Source of the DNA: Methylophilus sp. Leaf416
GTDB lineage: Bacteria > Pseudomonadota > Gammaproteobacteria > Burkholderiales > Methylophilaceae
NCBI RefSeq assembly: GCF_001424665.1
Contig: NZ_LMQS01000002.1
Coordinates: forward strand, 578,289-642,288
Length of the DNA stretch: 64,000 bases
Direction of reading: 5' to 3'
The notes beneath the pieces were generated by a model. The model was given only the letters and a program-made list of their open reading frames with translations, searched no databases and was not told where the DNA came from. Each line of letters opens with the position of its first letter. Position 1 is the stretch's first letter. Shown in pieces: positions 7,086-21,154 of this stretch. The position numbers and the translations under genes were made by a program.

Positions 7086-7103
7086 TATAAAAAAATCCCG
7101 CTA
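7086..7103 (+). other. Left half of a split bidirectional terminator
   Basis: TAT, seven A, TCCCGCT, then A. Together with the right half after the element (21126-21142), and with one copy of the 9-bp duplication as loop, it forms a perfect 17-bp stem with an 8-nt loop (ACGCAATG) and an A/T tract on each side. This is the pre-insertion terminator shared by hemE and the convergent cytochrome b561 gene. The halves are now 14 kb apart. Confidence 0.85.
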
Positions 7104-7112
7104 CGCAATGAG
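7104..7112. repeat. Target-site duplication, left copy
   Basis: CGCAATGAG, identical and in the same orientation at 21119-21127, directly abutting the outer ends of the terminal inverted repeats. Nine bp is a common length for DDE-transposase duplications. Confidence 0.88.
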
Positions 7113-7146
7113 CGAGGCGTTCAAATAAAGTGTTGGTACTGTTAAA
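7113..7146 (+). repeat. Left terminal inverted repeat
   Basis: Begins CGAGGCGTTCAA. Pairs with the reverse complement of 21085-21118: 12 identical bases, one mismatch, 12 identical (TAAAGTGTTGGT), two mismatches, 7 identical (TGTTAAA). Similarity continues inward as a C-rich/G-rich terminator hairpin at both ends. Confidence 0.88.
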
Positions 7147-7149
7147 ATC

Positions 7150-7178
7150 CCCCCTAGAACCTTAGGGGGATTTTTTTT
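7150..7178 (+). terminator. Terminator just inside the left inverted repeat
   Basis: Stem CCCCCTA / TAGGGGG with loop GAACCT, then A and eight T. It points into the element. It replaces the hemE terminator lost by the insertion and should stop hemE transcripts entering the transposase gene. Confidence 0.85.
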
Positions 7179-7227
7179 GGCTTCACAAAGGATACATAGA
7201 GTTCCGATCGCCTACCATGAGCTGCAA

Positions 7228-8937
7228 GTGAATTGCTGCAGAAATGTGCTGTGTGAAAATTTCGGAAAAATCCCTATTTTTGTTTTATCTGGCAAATATA
7301 AATTTGCCAAATCTGAGTCCTATCTAATTATCGGTGATAAGAGTCAAGCTAAGTTGCAATGCAAGTTATGTAAAGCATTCACAAGACTTAAAAGTAACAA
7401 GGGTGTTTATGAAGAGTTAATCCGAATTCGCGGAGACTGGTTAGGTGACCAAGCTAGTGAAATGTTAGCCTGTCCTAAACAAGGTTGCGATGCCACTGGA
7501 ACGGATTTTATTATTCGGCATGGAACAACTAAATCTGGTTCCATTCGCTATAGATGCAAGCAATGTGGTACAACGTTTGTGCCTTCACCGAGGAAGAATC
7601 GTAAACAAAAAAAGCCTGAAATTACCGAGCTAGTTTTTCGATTACTGATCAATAAAATGCCCATGAGGCGCATTTGCGAAACTGCGGACATTCAACCTGC
7701 AACCCTCTATAGCAAGATTGATTTGATACATAGATGCTGTATTAACTTTGCCTACGCGAAGGAGCTGGTTTGGCGTCAACAACCAGCCGTTGATAGGGTT
7801 TATCTTTCCCTAGATCGCCAGGAGTATATTTTTAACTGGGGAACGCAGCTTGACAGGACTAATACTAGTCTTACTTCGATTACGAGTGTAGACAATCGAA
7901 CGGGTTATGCCTTTTCGTTGACTCTGGACTTTGACCCAACACTTAACGCGGATCAAATAGAGGCGGAGGCCGTCAAGATAAATGACTATGATTTACCATA
8001 CCCTTATCGCAACTTTGCCAGACTTTGGATGTTAAGAGACTATTCAGATGAATACATTCTATCCAATAGGCTGGAAAGACATAACACACTCGGCACTAGT
8101 GGAGGAGAGACGGCGCAAAAATATCGCGACATGCTTAATGCAAAGAATGCATCTGACACTGAAGTCATAGAATTACCTAGTGGCAGGCGTCCGTCGCAAG
8201 GGATGCAGGTCCGCTCTGACTACGCCTTGTATGGGCACTTGTTCTTTTTGGAGGAAATGCTGCGAAATGTGTCAAAGGTAAGATTTTTCATGGACAGGGA
8301 AACCGGTGTATTTCCTGCATTTGCAGCGGCATTCGGCCCGCGCATTATCGAACGCACTGCTGATGCATTTTTCGTACGCATGAAGAAAAGCTTATCAGTA
8401 GACAAGAAAAAACTCCTTAAGGCGGCCGCACAAACAAGACTAAATAAGTGGGTGGACGAGCATCCCGAATTTGATGGCCAAAATGCCGTGCACCATGTTT
8501 TGCGTGAAATATTGGATTCAGCGATATCACAAGGTAGCTTGAATGGGGAGTGGATCATGCACCCGCTTTCAGATATGGCGGAGCCTAACAAAGAAGTTGC
8601 ATACTTAACAGATCTCGGTGGCTATGACCTTGACCACCTCGCTCACCTCTACAATATGGCCAGTTTGAAAGGGGTTGACCGTTTCTTGATGCTAATTCGA
8701 CGTAGACTATCTCTATTCGAAAGGCCAATTCATACAGCGAATGCACAGAACCGCAGCTGGTATGGTTACAGTGGGTACAATCCAGCGGTGGGTGCGAAGC
8801 TGCTAGCCATCTTCAGGACGGCCTATAATTACTGCTTGCCAGGAGATGATGGGAAAACACCTGCGATGCGTGTCGGAACCTGTGACCATGTTGTTACCCT
8901 GGGTGAGGTGCTGGGCGAGTTTAACTCAAAACCCTAA
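7228..8937 (+). CDS. Transposase-like protein with two zinc ribbons
   Basis: Probable transposase of the surrounding element. From the GTG at 7228 it has 569 aa; a TTG at 7177 (586 aa) is possible but lies in the terminator T run, so the start is uncertain. Cysteine pairs CCRNVLCENFG and CKLCK could form one zinc ribbon, and CPKQGC with RYRCKQCGTTF a second, of the kind found at the N-terminus of IS1/IS1595-type proteins. A helix-turn-helix-like segment follows (MRRICETADIQPATLYSKID), then a candidate RNase H-fold core with acidic residues in VYLSLDRQEY, SVDNRTGYAFSLTLDFDP and FFMDRETGVFPAF. I could not assign the catalytic triad or an IS family. Its place just inside the left inverted repeat, reading inward, supports the role. 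It converges on the WYL gene, with stops overlapping by 4 bp. Confidence 0.7.
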   Translation: MNCCRNVLCENFGKIPIFVLSGKYKFAKSESYLIIGDKSQAKLQCKLCKAFTRLKSNKGVYEELIRIRGDWLGDQASEMLACPKQGCDATGTDFIIRHGTTKSGSIRYRCKQCGTTFVPSPRKNRKQKKPEITELVFRLLINKMPMRRICETADIQPATLYSKIDLIHRCCINFAYAKELVWRQQPAVDRVYLSLDRQEYIFNWGTQLDRTNTSLTSITSVDNRTGYAFSLTLDFDPTLNADQIEAEAVKINDYDLPYPYRNFARLWMLRDYSDEYILSNRLERHNTLGTSGGETAQKYRDMLNAKNASDTEVIELPSGRRPSQGMQVRSDYALYGHLFFLEEMLRNVSKVRFFMDRETGVFPAFAAAFGPRIIERTADAFFVRMKKSLSVDKKKLLKAAAQTRLNKWVDEHPEFDGQNAVHHVLREILDSAISQGSLNGEWIMHPLSDMAEPNKEVAYLTDLGGYDLDHLAHLYNMASLKGVDRFLMLIRRRLSLFERPIHTANAQNRSWYGYSGYNPAVGAKLLAIFRTAYNYCLPGDDGKTPAMRVGTCDHVVTLGEVLGEFNSKP

Positions 8938-9806
8938 CTGACTTCCCCACCTATTTTATATCTCTCAGCTAAGGATGGGTTTTTAAGAGCAATAAATGGT
9001 GAGTGCGCATCTTTATCCAATCTCAACCAGTACAAAAAATATGGGACGAGACATCGTTTCATAGTGGTTTCCCACACGAACTCATTTTGGATGGCTTTCA
9101 TGCCATATTCGCTAGCAATGACACGAGCCTGATTGACTGATAACGAAGCTGATGGAATCACTTCGACCAGCTCTTCCTGATGCCATTCGACATCATTTTT
9201 AGTGTCCTGGGGGCATTTTACCTTAGAGGCTTTAGCTGTCAGTATCCTCTGCAAAACAAAATCACCAAAACACTCACGTAAACTATCATACGCCCTGACG
9301 TGCCATCTTAATCCGGCATAGACCAACGCATGCGGCCATAAAGTGCGTTCTCTTGGCGCTTCATGCGACATGGATTGATAACGAATTTTGAGTCCATGTC
9401 CCTGGCGCAAGGCTCTTGTGATTTCTCTGAGGACAGCCGCATCGATTTCGGATTTTGGTACGGGCAATCCAGTTGCTACTATGCCATCACCAATTGCTGA
9501 TAAAACTGCAGTCGAGTGTCCCTCTACATGGGTGCGCAATAATGAAAGGTACTCATCAGCAGAGCCCGTGCCAATATATGGGCGGAATTTCCTGCTTGGC
9601 CGATAACTTCGAGCACTCACATCATAGTCTAATTGATCTGGGAAGGCCTTCCTATATAGGCTAAAGTCCTGCGTGATGTGATTCTCGGAAACATCAAAAA
9701 CAGAGGATATTCTTTTTCTTCCGACCAATCCCTCCCAATACGCAACAGACTCTATGTACTGTAAACGTTGACGTTGGGCGAAACCTATGTGGTCTATACT
9801 GTGCAT
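8934..9806 (-). CDS. WYL-domain regulator, BrxR/CapW-like
   Basis: 290-aa DNA-binding regulator. The N-terminus (AQRQRLQYIESVAYWEGLVGRKRI, shown here only as key region, residues ~10-33) followed by VFDVSENHITQDFSLYRK forms a winged helix like that of the BrxR/CapW family, which controls BREX, CBASS and other phage-defence loci. A central WYL-type segment holds GLKIRYQSMSHEAPRERTL and WPHALVYAGLRWHVRAYD, and a C-terminal extension follows. It is divergent from the methyltransferase gene, with a 134-bp AT-rich gap holding two similar palindromes that are good operator candidates. Likely a repressor of the methyltransferase-nuclease pair and of itself; family assignment is by pattern, target by context. 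Confidence 0.8.
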   Translation of the reverse strand: MHSIDHIGFAQRQRLQYIESVAYWEGLVGRKRISSVFDVSENHITQDFSLYRKAFPDQLDYDVSARSYRPSRKFRPYIGTGSADEYLSLLRTHVEGHSTAVLSAIGDGIVATGLPVPKSEIDAAVLREITRALRQGHGLKIRYQSMSHEAPRERTLWPHALVYAGLRWHVRAYDSLRECFGDFVLQRILTAKASKVKCPQDTKNDVEWHQEELVEVIPSASLSVNQARVIASEYGMKAIQNEFVWETTMKRCLVPYFLYWLRLDKDAHSPFIALKNPSLAERYKIGGEVS

Positions 9807-9822
9807 GCCAAGGCAATATTAC

Positions 9823-9841
9823 ACCACATTTTTCATGTGTT
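9823..9841. promoter_or_regulatory. Candidate operator 1 (imperfect palindrome)
   Basis: ACCACAT-N5-ATGTGTT, one mismatch from perfect. Same ACnnACAT/ATGT layout and 5-nt spacer as the better site at 9876-9896. It lies 17 bp upstream of the WYL start. Confidence 0.5.
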
Positions 9842-9875
9842 ACAACTATTATAATTAACACACTATTATTAATTG

Positions 9876-9896
9876 ACCTACATGTTTTATGTAGGT
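9876..9896. promoter_or_regulatory. Candidate operator 2 (perfect palindrome)
   Basis: ACCTACAT-GTTTT-ATGTAGGT, an exact 8-bp inverted repeat 45 bp upstream of the methyltransferase start, in the AT-rich divergent promoter region. Suited to binding a dimeric WYL regulator. Confidence 0.6.
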
Positions 9897-9940
9897 ATTA
9901 TTTACCCTATGAATGCCCCATCCATTAACGGATTATTGGA

Positions 9941-12900
9941 ATGACTGCGCCTCATATCACGCGATGGATTGATGCGCTTGGATATTCTGCCGCAGGAGTT
10001 TCGGCTTATCTGCAGCCTGGCGATGCCCCGGCAGATCATCCGTATGGACGCGAGATTGATATATTGCTGGGCGACTTAACATCGACAAGTGATGCAGCAG
10101 TCATTGATATTGAACAAACACCAACCATATTATTTGTCGATGCTAGCCAGCAATCCAATCCCCTGGATCATAATCAGATATTAAAATTGCGGCAGCATAT
10201 CTGGAATCAGAACCTAGTTTCAATCATCATCAGCATCGATGGCGATCATGCCGACGTGTTTCCCGTGACTAATAAACAAAGTGACGGTCAGCGCTACTAT
10301 TTATCGGATTTGCATGAATCTGGCCCACTTTCCTTCACTGATATTGCGACCGGGAATATCCAGCAACGACTGCCCAACTGGTTCGACATCGATTCAAGAG
10401 TAGACCGCGAGTTGCTGCATAACCTTGGCCTGACTTTGCAAAAGATGGAATTGCAAAAAATCCCGCGCTCCGAATCCCAACTTATCCTTGGGCGAGTATT
10501 ATTCGTGTCTTATCTTGAGCATCGCGGCATTATTGGCAATTACTACAAAAAACAGCGCAATGTTGATTCTTTGCATGCCTTAATTCATCAAAGAAATCGA
10601 GAAGGCCTACGGACTTTGTTCAAGTCATTAAAGAAAGATTTTAATGGCGACTTCCTCGAAGTAGAGGGCGAGACTCATATTGAGTGGAATGAAATTGCGG
10701 ATAGCACTTTCATGTTGCTGGACGCATTTCTTTCAAGAGTCAGTATGGAAACTGGTCAAACCAGTCTATGGAATTATGATTTCCGTTACATCCCAGTGGA
10801 ACTTCTGTCCGGAATTTATGAGACCTTCCTGAATGAGGAAAAGCGAGCCAATGGGATTTATTACACGCCAAGACACTTGGCGAATCTTGCAGTTGATCTT
10901 GCCTTCCTGGACAAGGCTCATCCGGAAAATGAAGTCGTCTACGATGCGGCATGTGGCTCCGGCATTTTACTGACCACGGCCTTTCGCCGAATGCTGCGTT
11001 CTGCTGAACACCGGCATGGGGATGTACTACCGATTGATAAACGAATCGACTTGCTTCTGGCGCATATTCGCGGTTCCGATTTGAGTGAAGCCGCCTGCAG
11101 AGTGACTGCATTCAGCTTGTACCTCGCCCTGATGGAAGATATTGCACCTGCAGACATTGCCCGGCTTTGTGATGATGCTAACGTAAAGCTTCCGCCACTG
11201 CTGGGACGAATATTAATTGGTAGCACTGAAGGCGACTTTTTTAACAAGGGCAATAAGGTCGCTACGAAGGCACCCGAGGACGTCACAATCTTGCTTTCAA
11301 ACCCGCCTTGGGGCGAACCAAAAGGCAACGACTCCCATTTATACGAAAGTTGGGCTGCAGAGTACAAGCTTAAGTTACCGCACAGAAACATAGCTGCGGC
11401 ATTCGCTCACAAGGCAATAAAATCTGTCACCGCCAATGGCAGAGTGTGCCTGATTTTACCCGTTAAGTTATTTGCTTCAGATACCAGCCGTGACTTCTTG
11501 CATCAATGGATTTCTTCAATCCAAATCAAGCGCATCATCAATTTTTCTGATATTCGTCGGCTTTTATTCCCAAGTGCTATCCATCCCTGCGTTGTCGTTA
11601 TTGGGGATGTGCGTGACCCATCAAATCTCGGGAGAATTCCAGCCCGTGAAATGATTGAGGTATGGCATGCCAAAGCGGATGTCAGCCTTGCATTTGGGCG
11701 ATTGAGTGTCCATGGCATTGATCGCCACACCATTCTGGCTTCACGCCTTGCAGATGATCCTGAAACATTCAGGGCTTCGACTTGGGGAATACAGTCAGAC
11801 AGAGCAGTGATTGGTCGGCTTAGATTGTTTGGTGTACTTTCTGATCTGTTAACTGGAAAGCCAGCCAGATGGCAGCTTATCAAAGGATTCAATCAGACCC
11901 GTCATAGCTCAGAAAAACTGGACCCAGGCTTTCTCAAAAGCATGCGGTTTCTTGATACAAGAAACATCAGTAGAGAATTGCCTGTTCTGGATAATTCTAT
12001 ACTTGAAGAGTTTCCGGAGAGCATCACTTCAGTCGTATCACGTGGCAGCCAAAATGGTGCGGCATTCCATGGCGCAAGAGTATTATTTCCAGATGGCGCT
12101 GCCAGCAGTTTTAATGCTTATGCCATTTTTGCAAAGGGCGACTTCTGCTTCCGTCACACTTTAGCCGCACTCTGCGGCCCTGATGAAGATGAGGATATCT
12201 TGCGCTTTGTCGCAGTTTATCTCCGATCTCCATTGGCGGCATACTGCTTACTACACAATGCCTATGCTCTGACCTCAGAACGCACGCGAATAACCTTGGA
12301 CGAAATCGAGTCATTGCCATTTGCACTGCCAGAGCGGACTGGTAATCCAGAGAAAGCATGGAAAATCATCCATCACGTTGCGGATTTAACACGTGAAATT
12401 GAAACGATTGATTTTGGGCGGGAAGAGTATTGGCAGAATCTCTCTCCGAAGATCAACAAACTGGTATATCAATATTTCGGCGTAAGCGAGAGAGAACTAC
12501 CGCTAATCGAAGATGCTTGCAATGCATTGATTCCAAGTGTTCAGCCCGGTACATATAAAGACATCCGGACTCCATTATCTGGTAGCCCTAGGCCACATGA
12601 AGTATCTGCATATTTTGAGCGCCTGACATCCGAGTTATGTCTATGGCGCGACCGTATGGGTGGTCACGGCCAACTTATGACCTTTAATGATGCATCCCAT
12701 GCCCAGAATAATGCTGCAATCGGAATAGCTACGGTCGAACTAGTTGGACAATTGGAGCAAACTGAAGCCAAGGTTTCGAGGTCCAGAGTAGTGAATACCA
12801 TGGAGTCGATTCGTGATGCAGGACTATGGCCAATGCAAGCCACGCGTGATTTGGCGTTATCCTCCGACTTCCTGATTTATGATGGTCCGCGAATTCATAT

Positions 12901-12997
12901 TGTTAAACCTATGGTGAGACGATATTGGCTCGAGAGACAAGCTTTTGATGACGCACGACGTATTGTCGAAGCCATAGGTGTTGCAACTCATGGATAA
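9941..12997 (+). CDS. N6-adenine DNA methyltransferase
   Basis: 1,018-aa methyltransferase probably acting on adenine in DNA. SAM-binding motif I (VVYDAACGSGILLTTAF) is near residue 335 and catalytic motif IV NPPW (LLSNPPWGEPKG) near 453, preceded by the HsdM-like IYYTPRHLANLAVD. The order (motif I, then IV, then a long C-terminal part) fits gamma-class enzymes with a C-terminal target-recognition region. The ~300-residue N-terminal part shows no clear nuclease motif, so a single-chain type IIG restriction enzyme is not supported. The neighbouring nuclease-like gene overlaps its end by 8 bp, implying translational coupling. It resembles neither PglX-type BREX nor a standard HsdM with HsdS by context. 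Confidence 0.88.
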   Translation: MTAPHITRWIDALGYSAAGVSAYLQPGDAPADHPYGREIDILLGDLTSTSDAAVIDIEQTPTILFVDASQQSNPLDHNQILKLRQHIWNQNLVSIIISIDGDHADVFPVTNKQSDGQRYYLSDLHESGPLSFTDIATGNIQQRLPNWFDIDSRVDRELLHNLGLTLQKMELQKIPRSESQLILGRVLFVSYLEHRGIIGNYYKKQRNVDSLHALIHQRNREGLRTLFKSLKKDFNGDFLEVEGETHIEWNEIADSTFMLLDAFLSRVSMETGQTSLWNYDFRYIPVELLSGIYETFLNEEKRANGIYYTPRHLANLAVDLAFLDKAHPENEVVYDAACGSGILLTTAFRRMLRSAEHRHGDVLPIDKRIDLLLAHIRGSDLSEAACRVTAFSLYLALMEDIAPADIARLCDDANVKLPPLLGRILIGSTEGDFFNKGNKVATKAPEDVTILLSNPPWGEPKGNDSHLYESWAAEYKLKLPHRNIAAAFAHKAIKSVTANGRVCLILPVKLFASDTSRDFLHQWISSIQIKRIINFSDIRRLLFPSAIHPCVVVIGDVRDPSNLGRIPAREMIEVWHAKADVSLAFGRLSVHGIDRHTILASRLADDPETFRASTWGIQSDRAVIGRLRLFGVLSDLLTGKPARWQLIKGFNQTRHSSEKLDPGFLKSMRFLDTRNISRELPVLDNSILEEFPESITSVVSRGSQNGAAFHGARVLFPDGAASSFNAYAIFAKGDFCFRHTLAALCGPDEDEDILRFVAVYLRSPLAAYCLLHNAYALTSERTRITLDEIESLPFALPERTGNPEKAWKIIHHVADLTREIETIDFGREEYWQNLSPKINKLVYQYFGVSERELPLIEDACNALIPSVQPGTYKDIRTPLSGSPRPHEVSAYFERLTSELCLWRDRMGGHGQLMTFNDASHAQNNAAIGIATVELVGQLEQTEAKVSRSRVVNTMESIRDAGLWPMQATRDLALSSDFLIYDGPRIHIVKPMVRRYWLERQAFDDARRIVEAIGVATHG

Positions 12998-13703
12998 CCA
13001 AGATGATAAAATTGCTGCATATGGCAGGCTGGCTCCCGCCTGGAATCAAGTTTATCCTGATGACGAATTCGGCAAAGTAGCTAAGTTTATTCAAGATCAA
13101 TGGGTGAAAGTAGTCAGCCATAGGCCGGTGCACTTTCATCTAGGCAGCCATGAGAGCAAGCTGACCAAATTCTTTAATAGCATCCTTGAACAATTCAAAA
13201 GCGAAGCGGGCTTTATTGGCCATTTCACCAGTGAAGCAGTACATGGGGTTCCTGATCTTGAGCAGGGCTTATTGATGGATGAGCGACGCACGGATATCAG
13301 GTATTTATCCTCACGTAGTGACCTGACAGTTACTTTTGAGTTTAAGAAACTAAAAGACAATCGTGATAGCAGACTTAAGTACTATGGTAAGAGTGGTGTA
13401 TTACGCTTTGTAGAGGGCCATTATTCCAAAGAAAACTCTATAGGTGTGATGGTGGGCCTAGTGGGTAACAATTTCCCAGCTACTGTAACCAGCTTGCAGC
13501 GTGCTTTTGCCATGACTGGAACCCATTCGCTTTTGCATATGATTCCTTGCCCACAAGGCAGGTATGTCCGGGACCCTTCAGATGCACTGCCAAGCATTGC
13601 TACCTTTGATACTGAGCATTCCAGAGCTGTTTATGATGGGCGGCCTGAAATCCTTCTGTGCCATATGTTTCTCAATACACCGGACGCTAAACCTAAAACC
13701 TAA
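12990..13703 (+). CDS. PD-(D/E)XK nuclease candidate, partner of the methyltransferase
   Basis: 237-aa protein from the ATG at 12990, overlapping the methyltransferase stop by 8 bp. I do not recognise a named family, but it has a plausible PD-(D/E)XK core: D102 in RRTDIRYLSS, then a strand with E117-F118-K119 (DLTVTFEFKKLKD). This is the usual acidic residue ~15 positions before an E-x-K pair. An acidic residue in helix HESKLTKFFNSIL (~55) could be the extra N-terminal metal ligand. With the methyltransferase it could form a two-gene restriction-modification-like system without a specificity subunit. An in-frame GTG at 12978 would add four residues. Nuclease activity is inferred. Confidence 0.65.
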   Translation: MDNQDDKIAAYGRLAPAWNQVYPDDEFGKVAKFIQDQWVKVVSHRPVHFHLGSHESKLTKFFNSILEQFKSEAGFIGHFTSEAVHGVPDLEQGLLMDERRTDIRYLSSRSDLTVTFEFKKLKDNRDSRLKYYGKSGVLRFVEGHYSKENSIGVMVGLVGNNFPATVTSLQRAFAMTGTHSLLHMIPCPQGRYVRDPSDALPSIATFDTEHSRAVYDGRPEILLCHMFLNTPDAKPKT

Positions 13704-14152
13704 GTATTGACCAGATTTACTGTCTTGCCCATAAATTGCACTGAGCTCTAAGTTGGACGACTTTCGCATTTAGCAAATAATGCAATTGCATCATCGCAAT
13801 ATTTGCAATCGCCCTGGCAACAGTCATGCATTAAAAAAGCCACTAAACAGATAGTGCTGTCACAAGAAGGATTTCAATTATCGTCAACTGAATCATATAT
13901 CACTTACATAGATGAAGACCTCGAAGACTGGGATGCGGTTTGGGATGGAATGAAGCAACATCTCGAGGCCTTAGACGCGCCAGAGCAATTGGAACTTGCT
14001 CTATTGAGTGCAATTTCCTCGTCTTTTGCATAGCATTAAGGGATATACAACTTCATCAAAATGGTGATGACGATTGGGAATTAATTGACCAATAATGGTG
14101 TTATAGTGGTAAAAATATCTATCAAATAAAATACAACAAATATGGGTGCTGC
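13704..14152. other. Gap with no firm gene
   Basis: 449 bp between the nuclease candidate and the GNAT-PUA gene. It holds one doubtful 76-codon frame (13803-14033) and an AT-rich stretch at ~14040-14150 with GGTGTTATAGTGGTAAAAAT that probably carries the promoter of the next operon. No clear terminator was found after the nuclease gene. Confidence 0.5.
13803..14033 (+). pseudogene. Doubtful small acidic reading frame, possible gene remnant
   Basis: 76 codons from a TTG, with no in-frame ATG until near residue 50 and no ribosome-binding site. The C-terminal half (DEDLEDWDAVWDGMKQHLE) is acidic and helix-like and looks more protein-like than random sequence. It may be the tail of a decayed gene. 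Function unknown. Confidence 0.25.
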
Positions 14153-15211
14153 ATGCGCAATCTTACTTACTGTGAGTTTGGAGATGTTGATTTAGGTGAC
14201 AAATTTTTTGATTCCTTAAAAGCGGATTACCCAAAATTTGTTGGCTGGTTTAATACTAAAGCCGCCTCTAAAGAAAAGGCTTATGTTTTTTACCGAATCA
14301 AAGACAATATTGATGGTTTTTTGTATTTGAAAATCGAAGAAGGTGAGGTTAATGAAGTCATTCCTCCCTTACCCAATGGTAAACATCTTAAGGTTGGCAC
14401 TCTAAAGATTAACGCTCACGGTACAAAACTGGGCGAAAGATTTATCAAAAAGCTATTGGACTACGCTGTCTTGCAAGATGTAGATGACATATACGTAACA
14501 GTATTTGAAAAACATGCTCCGTTAATTGATCTTTTAACCCGCTATGGATTTGTGCAAGTTGGCATTAAGAAAAACGATCAAGGTGAGGAGATTGTTCTTG
14601 TTCGTGATATGTCAGTTACAAGTGGGGACATATTAAAAGATTACCCATTCATCTTACCCAATCAGGGTGATCCTTATTTGTTAGCAATTTGGCCAAAATA
14701 CCACACAAAGTTTTTGCCAGATTCTAAGTTGAATAATGAATCATTTGATATCTTAGAAGATGTCTCACATACAAATAGTATCCATAAAGTTTATATATCT
14801 GGAATTCCAGCAACTGGAAAACTAAAACAAGGCGATATTTTAGTACTTTACCGAACCACCGATAAATCGGGAAAAGCTTATTTTAGGTCTGTTGCAACGT
14901 CTATATGCGTTGTACAAGAAACAAGAAAAGTGAATAGCTTTGGAACATTTAAGGAATTTATTAAATATGTAAAACCATACAGTGTGTTTAGTCATGAAGA
15001 ACTGAATGAGTATTACACAAAAAAAGCTAAATATAATGTGATCAAGTTTACGTACAATGCCGCTTTGGTAAAAAGAGTAATTCGTAAGTTGTTGTTGGAA
15101 GAAGTTGCTGTTTCGGTCCAACCAAGGTGGGACTTTAGAAAATTGTCAAATAAGCAACTTGAAAAAATTATTAGTATTGGAAGTCTAGATGAAAATTTTA
15201 TTGTCGATTAA
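14153..15211 (+). CDS. GNAT acetyltransferase fused to a PUA-like (EVE/ASCH-type) domain
   Basis: 352 aa. The N-terminal ~160 residues look like a GNAT acetyltransferase: a strand followed by an acetyl-CoA-loop-like segment (GTLKINAHGTKLGERFIKKLL) and the late GNAT strand-turn (LIDLLTRYGFVQVG). The C-terminal part has a PUA-fold pattern (KLKQGDILVLYRT, then AYFRSVATSICVVQETR), a fold that usually binds RNA or modified bases. It starts a three-gene run: the ASCH gene overlaps its end by 23 bp and a second GNAT follows. This suggests acetylation of an RNA or nucleotide-linked target, or an acetyltransferase toxin system, but the substrate is not shown. Base composition is AT-rich compared with flanking chromosomal genes. 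Confidence 0.65.
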   Translation: MRNLTYCEFGDVDLGDKFFDSLKADYPKFVGWFNTKAASKEKAYVFYRIKDNIDGFLYLKIEEGEVNEVIPPLPNGKHLKVGTLKINAHGTKLGERFIKKLLDYAVLQDVDDIYVTVFEKHAPLIDLLTRYGFVQVGIKKNDQGEEIVLVRDMSVTSGDILKDYPFILPNQGDPYLLAIWPKYHTKFLPDSKLNNESFDILEDVSHTNSIHKVYISGIPATGKLKQGDILVLYRTTDKSGKAYFRSVATSICVVQETRKVNSFGTFKEFIKYVKPYSVFSHEELNEYYTKKAKYNVIKFTYNAALVKRVIRKLLLEEVAVSVQPRWDFRKLSNKQLEKIISIGSLDENFIVD

Positions 15212-15596
15212 ACCTGAGTTTGCCCTTAAGATTTTGAATGGGGACAAAAAATTTGAGTTCAGAAAATCAGCATTTGCGAATGTAGGTGCGACGTGTGTAG
15301 TTATATATGCCACTAAGCCACTGGGAATGATCATAGGCGAGTTCGATGTCTCTGAAGTTTTTATAGATGCACCAGAAAATATATGGGAAAGAACAAAAAA
15401 ATTCGCAGGTATAGGTAAAGTCAAATTTGATGAATATTATTTAGGTAGAGAGACTGCCGTTGCATTAGTAGTCGGTGAGGTGAGAAAGTATGACGTCCCT
15501 TTAGAGCTCGGTGACCTAGGCGAAAAGATTACTCCACCTCAGTCATTTAGGTACTTGAATGAATCATTTCAACATGCACAACTCCAACTAATTTAG
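15189..15596 (+). CDS. ASCH-domain protein
   Basis: 135 aa, a stand-alone ASCH (PUA-superfamily) domain. The N-terminal ILLSIKPEFALKILNGDKKF followed by EFRK is the typical ASCH signature, with the conserved basic K-x-E-x-R cluster. ASCH proteins are predicted to bind RNA, and some act as nucleases or amidohydrolases on modified nucleosides. Overlap with the upstream GNAT-PUA gene and an 10-bp gap to the next GNAT gene point to one transcript. Its partner role in the cassette is inferred. Confidence 0.8.
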   Translation: MKILLSIKPEFALKILNGDKKFEFRKSAFANVGATCVVIYATKPLGMIIGEFDVSEVFIDAPENIWERTKKFAGIGKVKFDEYYLGRETAVALVVGEVRKYDVPLELGDLGEKITPPQSFRYLNESFQHAQLQLI

Positions 15597-15606
15597 AATT
15601 TACATT

Positions 15607-16104
15607 GTGAAAACTATTTTTCTAAATCAAGAGTTATTACTTAATGCACCAGAGTACGCAGAATTGCTCGTTGATGAATCGAGAAAGATGCTCCTCGATA
15701 TGTCTAACTATTATCCGAATTTTACGGATTGGTTTGATCAAACGGTGATTCCTGGGCTTGAGTCTGGTGAACGTACTATCATCTTGCTTAAAGATATGAA
15801 TAAGCCTATTGCTGGGCTTGGTATTGTTAAAGATACCCTAGAAGAAAAGAAATTATGCTGCCTAAGAGTTAGAGACCAATACAACGGGTCTGGCCTAGGG
15901 GTTCGTCTATTCAAACATTCATTTGCTGAGCTTGGTACTGACATGCCGTTATTGTCAGTTTCTTCTGAAAAACTACCAGAGTTCAAACGTGTTTTTGATT
16001 ATTTCGGGTTTGAATTCGGCGAAGAATATACGGGAATTTACAGGCCTAAGAAAAAAGAGATGAGCTTCAATGGTGAGCTCCTAAACACTAAATACTCATT
16101 TTGA
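15607..16104 (+). CDS. GNAT-family acetyltransferase
   Basis: 165 aa from a GTG start. It has the GNAT core: a beta strand ending in CCLRVRDQYNGSGLGVRLF, where Q/R-x-x-G-x-G/A binds acetyl-CoA pyrophosphate, then the C-terminal helix-strand FKRVFDYFGFEFGEEY. The initial ~60 residues are unusual (LLVDESRKMLLDMSNYYPNF). It is last in the GNAT-PUA/ASCH/GNAT cassette and converges on the next gene with a 9-bp stop overlap. Substrate unknown; options include aminoacyl-tRNA (as in GNAT toxins), a protein or a small molecule. Confidence 0.7.
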   Translation: MKTIFLNQELLLNAPEYAELLVDESRKMLLDMSNYYPNFTDWFDQTVIPGLESGERTIILLKDMNKPIAGLGIVKDTLEEKKLCCLRVRDQYNGSGLGVRLFKHSFAELGTDMPLLSVSSEKLPEFKRVFDYFGFEFGEEYTGIYRPKKKEMSFNGELLNTKYSF

Positions 16105-17292
16105 TTTAAGTTTAGTCAAAATCTGAATAACTTTGTCCAGTGTTGCGTTGTATCGGCTACTACGCTGCAACGCAGCAAAGATACTGGGGCTAAAAATTGC
16201 TAGCATTCCAAGTGCTATAACTCCAATTATCAACCAGTAATCTTTGTTGGTAGCCTGATGGGGATCAGATAGTATTTCCCATAGACCATTCCCTGCCATA
16301 CCAAACCCTAAGCCTAAAAATATAAATCTGCAAATATGTAAAATTCCGGAACTGGTTTCAGAGAATCTACCAAGTGCCACTAAGTCTTTGACTGGATAGT
16401 TTTCATCTTGGATGTTGGACTTGGTCCATTGATAACCTAAATAATTCCGTACTGAATCTCTAACATCCTTATCAGAATCGGAATGGCTTTCAACGTAATA
16501 ATTCCATATTTCCTCATCTGTTAAAGATCTGCAGCCCACAAAGTTCTGGCCTTGAAAAATACACTCCTGATTTCTATTGATTGTTAGAAAGAAATGAATT
16601 TTCTTTAGTGGAGGAAATATCACTTTGTCACTGTTGATTAGCAACTCTTTAGGGATGCCTCTTCTGACGTTGATTCGAAAGTCAACTATTCTTGTACTTA
16701 CGTAAGAGCTCAAAATATTACTATCGGGCTGGCAAAAAATGGACTGATAAAAATTTCTTGGAATGTTGATGATTCGAAAACGGACGTAAAGTCGATCAAT
16801 ATTTTCTTTATAAATCTCATAAGGCTTTAAAGCTGGAATCTTAATTTTTAAATTTGTAATTTCATCTTTAGTGGAGAGATTGGTATAGGAGATAGTGATG
16901 TCTTGTGGAGCTAATCTCAATAATAAAAATTTATTTTGAATCGCGGTCGACTGATTCGCTATGTCCTCTGCATTCTTTAACAAGTGAACTAAAGCTATAT
17001 TGGTATCGGCTCTCCCATTGTATTGAACCGATTCATTAAAAATAGCAGCAATACTTTGCTCACTATTTAACGATGTTCCTAAATCATAGACATTTGAGTC
17101 ATCCAGTCTCCAAGGAATAGTAATTTCAATTGAATCAATTTCTTTCCACTGAGAAATCATTAGACCCATATCAATAAATGGCTTTCCGATTTCCCATAAA
17201 TTGATATGAAGCTCATCTAATGGCTTTATAGGCTGTGTGAAGCCATCCTTAAGATGATATCTAATTAAAATTCCGGTGAATGTTTTATCCAT
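16096..17292 (-). CDS. Unrecognised protein with two C-terminal membrane segments
   Basis: 398 aa, family not recognised. The first ~310 residues look soluble and mixed alpha/beta with no known motif. Two hydrophobic segments follow near residues 316-340 (ICRFIFLGLGFGMAGNGLW) and 352-374 (WLIIGVIALGMLAIFSPSIF), then a short basic tail. That suggests a large cytosolic domain anchored by a C-terminal hairpin. Its start is 5 bp after the stop of the P-loop kinase gene, so they form a two-gene operon. A membrane effector plus a nucleotide-sensing partner is a common defence layout, but this is only an inference. Strongly AT-rich. Confidence 0.6.
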   Translation of the reverse strand: MDKTFTGILIRYHLKDGFTQPIKPLDELHINLWEIGKPFIDMGLMISQWKEIDSIEITIPWRLDDSNVYDLGTSLNSEQSIAAIFNESVQYNGRADTNIALVHLLKNAEDIANQSTAIQNKFLLLRLAPQDITISYTNLSTKDEITNLKIKIPALKPYEIYKENIDRLYVRFRIINIPRNFYQSIFCQPDSNILSSYVSTRIVDFRINVRRGIPKELLINSDKVIFPPLKKIHFFLTINRNQECIFQGQNFVGCRSLTDEEIWNYYVESHSDSDKDVRDSVRNYLGYQWTKSNIQDENYPVKDLVALGRFSETSSGILHICRFIFLGLGFGMAGNGLWEILSDPHQATNKDYWLIIGVIALGMLAIFSPSIFAALQRSSRYNATLDKVIQILTKLKSK

Positions 17293-17297
17293 GTGAT

Positions 17298-17825
17298 CTA
17301 TTCTTTTAGAAGATTATTGACCGCTTCATTGAAATCTTTTTGGGATGGGCTATTTAATTTTATAAGTGGTATTTCTATCTTTTTACAAATATATTCGGCA
17401 CGCGCACGCTCTTTTGAGAAAAATAAGTCTAAATCCACTTCAGCAGAAATACCATCACGGTTCATTAATCTCTCCGTAACTGTCGGTAAATCAGTTTCTA
17501 TTAATATGCATGCAGAAAATTTGGCTTGAACAAAAATGTTTTCAGGCACACATTCAAACTCATTTGCTGACTTCAATAAAACAAAATGACCATCTAAGAG
17601 AAGAAGTTCATTCCCTTGAAATCTTTTCAATGCCTCCAACAAGGCTGTTTGATTACGATCGATATCAGAAACATATTTATCTGCTCCCCAATTTTCAACT
17701 TTTAGCTGCTGCTTTATCAATTGGCTGGCTGATGAATGAATCGCATTTTCATGTTCATTTTCAGAATAAGCCTTACATAAATAAGATTTTCCTACTCCAT
17801 GAATGCCCGCCACAAATATAATCAT
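17298..17825 (-). CDS. P-loop nucleotide kinase-like ATPase
   Basis: 175 aa from the ATG at 17825 (a TTG at 17837 would add four residues). Walker A is near the start (FVAGIHGVGKSYL), a Walker B-like strand near residue 75 (NELLLLDGHFVLL), and a lid-like arginine-rich segment near 130 (LFFSKERARAEYI). The size and arrangement match small kinases of the adenylate-kinase/AAA_18 type rather than AAA+ oligomers. It is co-transcribed with the membrane protein and divergent from the 169-aa gene. Function not known; a nucleotide sensor or kinase feeding the membrane partner is one idea. Confidence 0.7.
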   Translation of the reverse strand: MIIFVAGIHGVGKSYLCKAYSENEHENAIHSSASQLIKQQLKVENWGADKYVSDIDRNQTALLEALKRFQGNELLLLDGHFVLLKSANEFECVPENIFVQAKFSACILIETDLPTVTERLMNRDGISAEVDLDLFFSKERARAEYICKKIEIPLIKLNSPSQKDFNEAVNNLLKE

Positions 17826-17960
17826 TTTTATCTTCAATTAATATGTTTTGCAAGTATAGTAATCTAAATTGTTAATTATTGAACCTTTCAAATCAAGGTT
17901 GTGTGAAATCTTTTAGCTGATGTTATCGTCAGTCCTTAATTGTAAAAGTTAGAGTATCCA

Positions 17961-18470
17961 ATGCATCGACCAGAAGAGCATGATCACTACTTAGATTTCG
18001 AACAGATCAAAAGGAACGCATTTGTCCTTTTGAATCTTGGCTATGGGTTAAATCGGCTTTTAGAAGACGGGGAAGGTGATGTTGCGTACAGAAAAGATTC
18101 CGCATTATTTCGTGAGTACGGGAAGATGTATGAAAGCGAGATTTCAACTCGGTTATTGAGCGCTGCCGTAACAGCAAGAGTTTTAGATGACAAGCTGATT
18201 AATTCAAAATCAGATGGTACGGCCACCAAATTTCCTCACGGAGAATATATGCTTGGTGATGACGAGAATGGTGAACCTATCAACTTAAGGCAGTGCTTCA
18301 ATAAAATCATTCACGCCTCCCGGATTTACCACGAGTTAATGCAACTCCCAGAGGTTTATTTGTCTGGCAAACAGCAAAATGAAAAGGAATGGCATATCCG
18401 GCTATTCTTATTGCCCTTCTGTACGGCGTTATATCAATGGGTCGATCATTATCAACGCGACCACACTTAA
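17961..18470 (+). CDS. Unrecognised helical 169-aa protein
   Basis: Family not recognised. The sequence is mostly amphipathic helix with two features to note: an early helical part (FEQIKRNAFVLLNLGYGLNR) and a later one (NLRQCFNKIIHASRIYHEL). The second, with a conserved-looking N-K-I-I-H-A-S pattern, recalls HEPN-like or AbiV-type helical proteins, but the RX4-6H motif is not obvious. Start ATG at 17961. It is divergent from the kinase/membrane pair and lies upstream of the DUF2384 gene on the same strand. Confidence 0.55.
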   Translation: MHRPEEHDHYLDFEQIKRNAFVLLNLGYGLNRLLEDGEGDVAYRKDSALFREYGKMYESEISTRLLSAAVTARVLDDKLINSKSDGTATKFPHGEYMLGDDENGEPINLRQCFNKIIHASRIYHELMQLPEVYLSGKQQNEKEWHIRLFLLPFCTALYQWVDHYQRDHT

Positions 18471-18520
18471 CAGAGGTACAATAAAATTTCAACGCTATAC
18501 TTAGATGACAAGTCTACTTA

Positions 18521-18538
18521 GTTGCGTAAGGTAGCAAC
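18521..18538. promoter_or_regulatory. Small inverted repeat upstream of the DUF2384 gene
   Basis: GTTGC-N8-GCAAC, 25 bp before the start; an AAGGAG ribosome site follows at about 18550. A possible operator; short arms make this weak. Confidence 0.3.
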
Positions 18539-18562
18539 ACTCTTTATTTAAGGAGTTCACGG

Positions 18563-18769
18563 ATGAACAGTGAAAGTCTTTCTTTAAGCTGGGGGCGTAT
18601 ACGTTCTTTAGCAATTGATACATTTAGTTCTGAGGCAAAAGCAGATGCATGGCTCAATAAACCTCACACAATATTAGGGAATACTCCGATTGCTACTGCC
18701 GAATCATCCTATGGGTACGCAGAGGTTGAGAGAATGCTTCACGCTATTGGCTTTGGTGGAACTGTTTAA
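18563..18769 (+). CDS. DUF2384 (MbcA/ParS/Xre antitoxin-type) small protein
   Basis: 68 aa matching the C-terminal domain of Xre/MbcA/ParS antitoxins: A-x-x-x-F-x(5)-A-x-x-W-L-x-x-P (FSSEAKADAWLNKPHTILGN) followed by TPIATAESSYGYAEVERML and a final I-x-x-G. The usual N-terminal HTH is missing, so it is a domain-only form. The normal partner, a RES-domain toxin, is not next to it; the following frame encodes a short basic protein instead. It may be a solitary antitoxin (anti-addiction), a remnant, or part of an unusual pair. Confidence 0.75.
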   Translation: MNSESLSLSWGRIRSLAIDTFSSEAKADAWLNKPHTILGNTPIATAESSYGYAEVERMLHAIGFGGTV

Positions 18770-18812
18770 GCAATCTACAATCATTTGATTTTGAAATTAC
18801 GGATGCGTGAAA

Positions 18813-19031
18813 ATGAACTATCAAAGCAAGAAACCTAAATCGCCTTCCATTACGCCCTCGACCGCAAAACTCATGCAACTGCGGGCTGGTAAGGGGCTTG
18901 GAATGTTGAGCCAGGAAGAAATCGAATTATTACGAAAAAGTAAGAAGGAGATTTCTGAAATGTGCAGGAAGTATTCAAAATTAATAATCCAGAAATCAGA
19001 TAAGTTTATCGCTAAAGTTATGCCGCGGTAG
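18813..19031 (+). CDS. Small basic protein, unknown
   Basis: 72 aa from the ATG at 18813 (GTG at 18807 is an alternative), very rich in Lys/Arg/Ser. No family recognised. The central part (GMLSQEEIELLRKSKKEI) is helix-like. Placed 43 bp after the DUF2384 gene on the same strand, in the slot where a toxin partner would be expected, but with no RES or other toxin motif. Confidence 0.45.
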   Translation: MNYQSKKPKSPSITPSTAKLMQLRAGKGLGMLSQEEIELLRKSKKEISEMCRKYSKLIIQKSDKFIAKVMPR

Positions 19032-19075
19032 TACTCTTTTTCTGAAAAAGCTCATGCTAAACTCCAAAGGAAAAC

Positions 19076-20839
19076 TTATCCTTTAAACCGGTTTTTTTGC
19101 ACATCTAAAATGTTTGTACCGATCAGGCCAATTGCCTCAGCGTAGTTATGAATCATTTGTTGGCCTTGCTTAAGGTAAGACAAATCTTGGTCTATGCCAG
19201 CCAGTTTTATAGCGTCATCAATTTTGGAGCTTGTCGGGTGTGCATCACCATTTCGCATGTCATATACGCCAATAATCACTCCGAAGAGTTCACGTGCTTT
19301 ATCAGGCCCAATTATTTGCGTCAAAATATCTTCAAGAAGCTTGATCGAGCCCAGTTCCTTATTGCGAGCATGGGTACGAAGTCCTGGAATATTCAATCGA
19401 TCAGAAAATACCCGAACTAGTTCTTTAGCAAGTCTTAATAATGAGGGCTTATCTTTGCTAGCAAAACGAGAAACGACCTTTAACGTTTCTATTATATTAA
19501 TGGGATGGTTAAAAAGTGGTGTTTTGTATTTTACTAAAAATGCATGTTCAACCATCTCTAGATTTTCAATCAGCAAATTTTCTGCCGCTTTTGTTTTCGC
19601 TGCCCTACCTTGAGCATGAGCTAAAAGTAGCTCTTTTGAAACCTTACCTTCTGGGACGATACTTTGCGCTGCCCAGATTGCTTGTTCCCAGGGTTCAAGA
19701 CGGGGAATATCGCACCCATAAACTGAAACCAAATCAGAACCATTGAGTCCGAAATGAGTTGCACGATCCGACGTTGAGCAAATACCACCAGTTTCCGCTG
19801 TATACCATTGCAATGAAAAGCCCCGGTGTCCCAGTAAGTGATTGATGATTTCCGGCTTAAAAAATAGCCATCTGCCAATATCCTCGTCGTTTAGTTCAGC
19901 AGAGGTCATTCTTTTAGCATCTGTCTCTACGACAAATGAAGGAAGTTCCGTATTCACATCTCCACGAACTCGGATACTTTGACCTTTGTGTTCAATCCAT
20001 TCTTCTCGTCTAAACTGACTTTCAATACGAACCCCTTTGAATCCAGATATATACCCTCTAGTTTGTTCGGACTCGGTGTTGTCATTGGTTTCTGGACCCA
20101 TCACAGGTGCATCTTCTTCACCATCAACGTCGGTACGCCCCACGCGGAATGTTGCAAAGGTACCGCCATAAACAGAGTCCAGCGACCGAATGATTAGTTC
20201 GAAATGCCCTCCGTCCCTTGCTTCCTCAAGTGAAACTAACCCTTGGTAAGGGCTCCCTTTTAAAGAAGGTACATTTTCTACTCGCATGCGAAACGTGGCC
20301 ATACGAAGTGATAAATTTCTGGCAGCTAGATAATCCATTAAAAATTCTCGTTTGATTTCGATTAAGTAATGATTACCCTCTGAATCGACCCTCTCTCGAG
20401 CAACTTCTGTGAAATCTTCTACAGGCCTGACCCAACTATTGCCTTCTTTTATTAGATCTAGTGCGACCACAAGATCCGGGTTAAGTATCCAATGGCGTTT
20501 ACCGATCACAGACTGAATGTGCTCAAAAACAAGCTCAACTCCGATGGTTTCATCATTGTATTGATAGTGATCAATGGGAGTGTACCTACCATCCGAATGT
20601 ACATATGGATCCGTACGATGACCACCTAAATCATTAAAATCTAACCGGTTCCCAATCTTTATATATTCAGGATGAATAGCAGCTGTACCTACCCCTAAAT
20701 ATTCCTCTAGATAGCCAATTTTTTGTACATCACCTTCTTGGTCAGGAACGGATGCTCTTAATGGCACCCATGTGGCAGTAGAGTAAACACGTCGTGTCTC
20801 ACTAGCTTGTAATATCCAGTCTTTATTCTTTTTACACAT
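19076..20839 (-). CDS. Large protein with a C-terminal HEPN-type RX4H motif
   Basis: 587 aa, whole-protein family not recognised. The C-terminal ~180 residues are helical and end in a HEPN-like element, R529-N-G-D-A-H534 in GVYDMRNGDAHPTSSK, matching the RX4-6H motif of HEPN ribonucleases, with a hydrophobic helix before it (ARELFGVIIGVYD) as in ApeA-like proteins. The N-terminal ~400 residues are mixed alpha/beta with possible sensor roles and contain an acidic linker (DVDGEEDAPVMGPETNDNTE). It stands alone at the right end of the element, facing inward. This fits an abortive-infection RNase with its own sensing domain. The motif is visible; activity is inferred. Confidence 0.6.
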   Translation of the reverse strand: MCKKNKDWILQASETRRVYSTATWVPLRASVPDQEGDVQKIGYLEEYLGVGTAAIHPEYIKIGNRLDFNDLGGHRTDPYVHSDGRYTPIDHYQYNDETIGVELVFEHIQSVIGKRHWILNPDLVVALDLIKEGNSWVRPVEDFTEVARERVDSEGNHYLIEIKREFLMDYLAARNLSLRMATFRMRVENVPSLKGSPYQGLVSLEEARDGGHFELIIRSLDSVYGGTFATFRVGRTDVDGEEDAPVMGPETNDNTESEQTRGYISGFKGVRIESQFRREEWIEHKGQSIRVRGDVNTELPSFVVETDAKRMTSAELNDEDIGRWLFFKPEIINHLLGHRGFSLQWYTAETGGICSTSDRATHFGLNGSDLVSVYGCDIPRLEPWEQAIWAAQSIVPEGKVSKELLLAHAQGRAAKTKAAENLLIENLEMVEHAFLVKYKTPLFNHPINIIETLKVVSRFASKDKPSLLRLAKELVRVFSDRLNIPGLRTHARNKELGSIKLLEDILTQIIGPDKARELFGVIIGVYDMRNGDAHPTSSKIDDAIKLAGIDQDLSYLKQGQQMIHNYAEAIGLIGTNILDVQKNRFKG

Positions 20840-21057
20840 TTATTAATCTACGTTCTTATTGGAATAAATTTGATGAAAGCAATATAACTTTAAGTACTGA
20901 ATGTGTATATGTCTAAACAGTTAGAATTTTTTTGAGTGACCTTGTCTGGGTATTAGGCATATCTTTTATGCTAGTTAAAACAAAAATACCGATTATTCAG
21001 AACTCTTACAAAACACATTTTTGCAGCTCATGAATGGGTGGCTATGACTTTGGGAAG
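20840..21057. other. Element right-end gap without a gene
   Basis: 218 bp of AT-rich sequence upstream of the HEPN-like gene, which probably holds that gene's promoter. Only a 21-codon frame is present. No integrase or tRNA remnant seen. Confidence 0.5.
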
Positions 21058-21083
21058 AAAAAATCCCCTAAAACTCTAGGGGG
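21058..21083 (-). terminator. Terminator just inside the right inverted repeat
   Basis: Mirror of the left-end terminator. On the minus strand: stem CCCCTA / TAGGGG, then A and six T. It points into the element and would stop transcripts of the cytochrome b561 gene, whose own terminator was split by the insertion. Confidence 0.82.
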
Positions 21084-21084
21084 C

Positions 21085-21118
21085 TTTAACAAAACCAACA
21101 CTTTAGTTGAACGCCTCG
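21085..21118 (-). repeat. Right terminal inverted repeat
   Basis: Reverse complement starts CGAGGCGTTCAA and matches 7113-7146 at 31 of 34 positions. It directly abuts the right 9-bp duplication. Confidence 0.88.
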
Positions 21119-21127
21119 CGCAATGAG
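21119..21127. repeat. Target-site duplication, right copy
   Basis: CGCAATGAG, identical to 7104-7112. The next bases (CGGGA, seven T, ATA) complete the terminator stem begun at 7086-7102. Confidence 0.88.
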
Positions 21128-21154
21128 CGGGATTTTTTTATACTGTGCAGATGA

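Follow-up and report, generated by a model that had tools for sequence, protein, structure and literature searches.

A probable hairpin-targeting transposon family, represented by a 14-kb element in a predicted hemE/cytochrome b561 terminator of Methylophilus sp. Leaf416

The window analysed here, a 64,000-nucleotide stretch of the genome of Methylophilus sp. Leaf416 (contig NZ_LMQS01000002.1, positions 578,289 to 642,288 of the forward strand), contains a 14,006-bp element at window positions 7113-21118. Judging from the sequence, this element is quite likely a transposon that entered the loop of the predicted terminator shared by hemE and the convergent cytochrome b561 (b561) gene with a 9-bp target-site duplication, and that belongs to a family found mostly at the dyad centres of hairpins. 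The transposase probably reads shape and not sequence; recognition of the symmetric form of the hairpin would be the probable reason for the position of these elements at the dyad centre.

The element is bordered on both sides by CGCAATGAG (7104-7112 and 21119-21127), an exact 9-bp duplication with no further occurrence in the window on either strand, and its two ends are inverted repeats of one another, identical at 31 of the first 34 positions. These boundaries had been proposed in a first-pass annotation of the same DNA, and recomputation returned exactly the same coordinates. The annotation had also held that removal of the block with one copy of the duplication rebuilds a terminator. Joining the flanks by script reproduced this predicted hemE/b561 terminator, with a 17-bp stem, an 8-nt loop, A/T runs and a folding energy of -22.2 kcal/mol; its hairpin score is 39, against a threshold of 21. 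A second copy in the host genome was sought and rejected, as the 101-bp left end used as query finds nothing in that genome beyond the two ends of the element, and the transposase matches once.

The b561 gene is present in 21 of the 22 genomes of the genus that were searched. With the locus of the window excluded, convergent hemE lies within the fetched stretch at 11 of 20 same-genus b561 loci, and at the other nine it is not within the fetched flank of about 1.5 kb. Ten of the 11 junctions consist of a gap of 55-167 bp with a terminator-like hairpin, and the remaining one has 567 bp between the genes. The uninterrupted junction that the annotation had proposed looking for is thus present, in short form, at 10 of the 20 loci. 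An altogether different account would treat the repeats as ordinary local terminators and the block as a genomic island without element boundaries. Terminator-like hairpins do occur in both ends, but empty sites exist, and 44 distinct elements with duplications share one end consensus and carry the same transposase next to it, which makes this account almost certainly wrong. A cryptic island without ends is likewise contradicted by the empty junctions and by the paired ends with duplications.

In overlapping genome samples from the host's family, order, class and phylum, any match to the transposase was found in 3 of 187, 18 of 399, 11 of 369 and 29 of 398 genomes, many of these matches being to the short zinc ribbon only. 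Near full-length copies are present in five genomes of the order sample, three of the class sample and six of the phylum sample, with the window genome counted each time. A scan of genome contigs with the single protein found no relatives. An alignment-based scan of named genomes confirmed 106 stretches, of which the best 80 were kept as loci; hosts among these best 80 include Rhodocyclaceae, Mariprofundus, Geobacter, Thiocapsa, Desulfobacula, Arenimonas and others. Both ends and a duplication were called at 49 of the 105 loci examined (some of them examined twice), giving 44 distinct elements of 1,934-14,006 bp, the window copy being the largest. The duplication is 9 bp long in 36 of the 44 and 10 bp in eight, and is exact in 40; the ends of all 44 start with C-N-A-G, as the search rule required. 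The annotation's suggestion that further copies would be found at terminators with duplications was therefore borne out, by terminator-like hairpins and 9- or 10-bp duplications. Among the literature matches listed, from a partial collection, none describes this transposase family or a duplication-forming transposon of terminator loops.

The pre-insertion site was reconstructed for 43 of the 44 elements (L201 was left out). A hairpin scoring at least 21 spans the insertion point at 33 of these 43 sites, and in 31 of the 33 the duplication centre and the dyad are no more than 1 nt apart. The same score is reached by 1.4% of 2,520 random flank positions, coding and intergenic mixed, and by 0.7% of dinucleotide shuffles. 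In a stricter control of 4,327 positions 0-100 nt after the stops of open reading frames (ORFs), which were called mechanically in the same flanks and are not all genes, 2.1% reach 21 and 0.4% are also centred. It could be argued that insertion is nearly random and that selection keeps those copies that fall in harmless intergenic DNA, where terminators lie, and of the 41 insertions whose flanks are sufficiently long, 20 do sit between a pair of ORFs whose 3' ends both face the element within 200 bp. Selection of this kind cannot, however, centre the duplication so closely on the dyad, and positions after ORF stops are seldom hairpin-positive and still less often centred. So exact a centring speaks against a model of random insertion and later selection, which is very improbable.

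Empty sites were also sought for other members of the family. At L107, which gives a second empty site, the 30-nt target is identical in relative L270, and a hairpin scoring at least 26 with a T-run follows the same gene in all 18 loci tested (of 20 relatives matching); the right flank was matched in nine of the 18, at 114-1156 bp, which is off the expected spacing. At L099, which gives a third, both flanks lie 37-182 bp apart in 14 of 14 relatives.

It may be that the target is read through transcription, as an RNA hairpin or a paused or terminating polymerase, and not as a DNA dyad. The A/T runs typical of intrinsic terminators, which accompany most hairpin targets, are in keeping with such a model. 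However, L186 and L102 are strong hairpin targets that lack a T-run, and the centre of the 9-bp double-strand stagger falls on the DNA dyad, so that reading through transcription, while deserving serious consideration, is unlikely. The enzyme, predicted to be of the DDE type, would cut the two strands across the loop with a 9-bp stagger. Within the duplication itself, individual positions hold little information.

The ends of the elements may themselves act on transcription. Under a strict test that demands a T-run, inward-facing terminators occur in 25 left ends and 28 right ends of the 44 elements (17 elements have both), and outward-facing ones in six and five, respectively; the control rates are 2-3% for shuffled sequences and 0.6% for 860 random pieces of flank. 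The ends thus likely replace the stop signal broken by insertion: with the shared terminator split, the inward terminators would again give each of the two genes a stop signal. Promoter-like pairs scoring at least 9 are found in 27 left ends versus five right ends; 29 pairs score at least 8, and 21 of these have a -35 box that begins no further than 22 nt into the element, in the terminal repeat. In many left ends, both the -10 box and a likely Shine-Dalgarno sequence overlap the hairpin; the latter is an AGGGGA-like ribosome site that is common, by eye, in the 3' arm just before the start codon. Given this overlap, the left hairpin is predicted to be a guard against read-through: RNA arriving from outside would form the whole hairpin, which may stop it or hide the transposase start, while the element's own transcript would begin within the 5' arm and so escape. 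Comparable logic is found in IS10 and IS50. Translation of the insertion sequence (IS) ISPpu9 is also controlled by 5' secondary structure, according to the part of the source available (PMC8450116). Outside the left end, at a distance of 22 nt, an adenine is present in 37 of the 44 elements, above the conservation of the neighbouring A-run, and has no equal on the right side at that distance.

The most comprehensive model combines all of these components. A DDE family would read DNA shape, locate the dyads of terminator hairpins genome-wide without a sequence code, cut 9 bp across the loop, bring two replacement terminators and so carry large defence cargo to gene ends with no harm to either neighbour, and use the left terminator to sense whether a transcript is its own or comes from outside. 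Taken as a whole, this combination has about an even chance of being correct.

No whole-protein Pfam or NCBIfam model assigns the 586-aa transposase. The predicted architecture consists of a zinc ribbon, a helix-turn-helix (HTH) and an RNase-H/DDE-type core, for which the nearest solved fold is that of ISCth4 (IS256 family). The similarity to ISCth4 is one of fold only, with approximately 12% identity in the fold alignment, and the catalytic core has no sequence-level match to the IS256 family, and for membership of that family only a 31-position zinc-domain model matches the transposase (27.2 bits, cut-off 27). D213 is invariant and D373 is present at 90% or more in the family alignment; both are candidate catalytic acids, and on the modelled fold the enzyme is predicted to be of the RNase-H/DDE type. 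An alternative classification, as an IS1-family member with cargo, draws on an NCBIfam IS1 model that matches residues 104-182 (E 1.4e-10, 41.4 bits), on a small IS1/IS1595 zinc-domain model above its cut-off (31.7 versus 28 bits), and on the 9-bp duplication, which is also typical of IS1. However, the IS1-model match is confined to the zinc ribbon and HTH and misses the 100-bit whole-protein cut-off, on which IS1 membership was rejected; the matches listed for 50 members (25 of 32 families) include no transposase catalytic family of Pfam, and the core fold is nearest IS256. An IS1 element with cargo is thus improbable.

A shorter relative of the transposase, of about 500 aa, is carried by eight genomes of one genus, which at a guess is Vibrio-like (L084-L089, L091 and L092). 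In the relatives of this length, D373 is replaced by P in eight of eight and D213 is lost in seven of eight, and the zinc-ribbon cysteines and C-terminal arginines are retained; these substitutions are compatible with a possible domesticated, catalytically dead transposase. At L112-L114, a relative of about 500 aa immediately follows the hairpin of a gene whose translation looks DeoD-like, and no paired ends were called.

The first-pass annotation had recognised no named element of this type, a statement that needs qualification: hairpin-targeting elements (IS1272) are already known, and a distant relative is already registered. This relative is the dfrG transposon of staphylococci and enterococci, registered as Tn7491 (printed as Tn4791 in the abstract), with 27-bp ends and a 9-bp duplication in the portion of the source available (PMC10763498). 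Its transposase is 23.5% identical to that of the window over query residues 14-579 (97% of the query, E 4e-18). The two elements share a 9-bp duplication, terminal repeats that are similar by eye and a downstream cargo gene; Tn7491 differs in its size of 3.3 kb and in a small extra gene before the transposase. A tblastn search of plasmids returned 125 records, 88 from Enterococcus and nine from Staphylococcus. The 23.5%-identical protein is present in 34 of the 40 plasmid matches listed, and adjoins dfrG in the two plasmid records fetched. Phage carriage was considered and rejected: a scan of viral contigs gave no confirmed relative, and the phage records contained only the distant 23.5% relative, in two Staphylococcus phages; it lies beside dfrG in the one such record fetched.

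Among elements known to use hairpins, IS1272/TnSha1 (IS1182 family) carries a gene and inserts at hairpin targets, several of them confirmed terminators, with little primary sequence preference; its insertion is blunt, occurs in the stem, deletes part of the target and leaves no duplication, as far as the available part of the source describes it (PMC4923244). The Leaf416 family resembles IS1272 in inserting at hairpins (33 of 43 sites), and is unlike it in having a 9-10-bp duplication centred on the loop and, at the window site, a stem that is intact on joining. The Tn7 attachment site, attTn7, lies within the glmS terminator region, and Tn7 depends on a multi-protein machinery of TnsABC plus a target selector. 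In contrast, the 44 elements called here have no gene in common but the transposase, and hairpins of many genes are used; no TnsA, TnsB, TnsC or target-selector gene was found among the window genes (scanned with Pfam for all genes, and with PADLOC and NCBIfam for the transposase and nine of 11 cargo genes). Group IIC introns insert next to terminators, and both they and ISPpu9, an IS that targets repetitive extragenic palindromic (REP) sequences, use different enzymes and targets. ISPpu9 inserts at palindromes (PMC8450116), and Tn7-like elements are transposons rich in defence cargo (PMC8649781), in the parts of these sources available.

Several observations weigh against shape-directed insertion and the functions proposed for the ends. 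No element was called at 56 of the 105 loci (contig ends, decay or no recognisable ends), six of these 56 (L127, L147, L157, L167, L200 and L202) have well-paired ends (at least 23 of 26) and no matching duplication, and the calling rule itself demanded a near-exact duplication and a C-N-A-G end. Ten of the 43 sites fall under the hairpin threshold, with no clear hairpin at L111, L145 and L193, and the window dyad is 1.5 nt off the centre of the duplication. Information in the A/T runs outside the stem reaches 1.15 bits across the 44 elements, and 1.52 at one position in the 9-bp subset, so that a sequence cue is possible. Empty-site tests found the right flank of L110 in none of 19 loci, and both flanks of L103 in two of 12 loci, 548 and 540 bp apart, which is above the expected distance. 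The intact Tn7491 site L198 has ends matching at 27 of 27 and a duplication at 9 of 9 positions, and its outer arms are complementary over only 4 bp; at a second site, L199, the duplication matches at 6 of 9 positions and the arms are complementary over 2 bp. Given the 4-bp arms at L198, hairpin targeting is not general to the superfamily, and it seems, from a small sample, to belong to the proteobacterial branch. For the ends, a relaxed test that drops the T-run and has no control finds a hairpin in 40 of the 44 left ends, and the -35 box of the window copy is weak (4/6). At 23 of the 27 left ends with a promoter score of at least 9, RNA containing the complete hairpin is more stable, by 5 kcal/mol or more, than RNA that begins 7 nt past the -10 box, in an uncontrolled comparison in which the shorter length of the self-started RNA explains part of the gap. 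Finally, the third catalytic acid could be either D501 or E515; D501 was favoured at first because it was invariant in the first family alignment, and is doubted because that position is N in the Tn7491 enzyme, which does share E515.

If insertion is directed by shape, one transposase would be able to deliver as much as 14 kb of DNA to gene ends, guided by structure alone and without damage to coding sequence, and the element would repair the termination broken by its own insertion. There would be a reason for the build-up of defence cargo between convergent genes, and the unclassified transposase of Tn7491 would gain a family context. The ability of a transposase to see a hairpin in double-stranded DNA would become directly testable, and a gene-sparing insertion tool could be possible.

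Table 1. Features of the element and its target site (window coordinates)
Feature	Position	Strand	Remarks
5' arm of interrupted predicted bidirectional terminator, hemE side	7086..7102		Loop 7103-7110; fold of joined flanks
Target-site duplication, left copy	7104..7112		CGCAATGAG
Left terminal inverted repeat	7113..7146	+	31/34 versus right end
Possible -35 box TTCAAA (4/6)	7120..7125	+	17 nt from -10; weak for window copy
-10-like box TAAAAT (5/6)	7143..7148	+	Overlaps 5' arm of left hairpin
Inward-facing terminator-like hairpin	7144..7174	+	Score 25, T-run; 3' arm AGGGGGA likely the transposase Shine-Dalgarno (putative role)
Transposase, 586 aa, TTG start	7177..8937	+	Zinc ribbon and predicted RNase-H/DDE-type core; open frame, family-invariant residues kept
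WYL-domain regulator, 290 aa	8934..9806	-	Recurrent cargo
Predicted type IIG restriction-methylation enzyme, 1018 aa	9941..12997	+	Recurrent cargo; PADLOC PDLC03623, E 3e-224
241-aa ORF behind IIG gene	12978..13703	+	Relatives in cargo of three other elements; no family match
PDC-M11A candidate defence protein	14153..15211	+	GNAT-like part; E 8e-140
PDC-M11B candidate defence protein	15189..15596	+	ASCH-like; E 1.4e-45
GNAT-like acetyltransferase, 165 aa	15607..16104	+	
Unknown protein, 398 aa	16096..17292	-	
P-loop kinase-like protein (AAA_17), 179 aa	17298..17837	-	
Unknown protein, 169 aa	17961..18470	+	Scanned against Pfam only
Xre/MbcA/ParS antitoxin C-terminal domain, 68 aa	18563..18769	+	
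Unknown protein, 587 aa	19076..20839	-	
Inward-facing terminator-like hairpin within right end	21065..21082	-	Followed inward by T-run; read by eye
Right terminal inverted repeat	21085..21118	-	
Target-site duplication, right copy	21119..21127		
Rest of 3' arm of interrupted terminator, b561 side	21128..21142		

The cargo of the window copy includes a WYL regulator, a predicted type IIG enzyme, the PDC-M11A/B pair, an MbcA-type antitoxin domain and several unknowns. Its description as defence-type in the first-pass annotation suits the IIG enzyme and the PDC-M11 pair, and applies to the family only in part: seven of the 44 elements lack any cargo ORF that reaches 100 aa, and part of the cargo is metabolic. 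The other 37 carry at least one such ORF beyond the transposase, 119 in total. The WYL gene recurs in five elements, the window included, and the window IIG-like enzyme clusters with cargo of seven other elements. Among 30 further ORFs, picked by hand and not at random from the 109 other cargo ORFs, 15 match PADLOC at 1e-3 (type II, III and IIG systems, PDC-S15, PDC-S24 and a subtilase) and 15 do not. L186 encodes a HipA-like protein, and L160 carries an AraC regulator, an alcohol dehydrogenase and a hydrolase; this metabolic cargo makes the family defence-rich and not defence-only.

The WYL regulator recurs together with an IIG-like enzyme of about 1016-1118 aa in different hosts (window 8934-13703, L099, L161, L171 and L183), with a partner of 222-261 aa beside the pair in four of the five elements, which suggests that the WYL/IIG-like module travels with the transposase. 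In the cargo of L103, a pair of ORFs (248 and 376 aa) is present twice, and is probably a nested mobile element.
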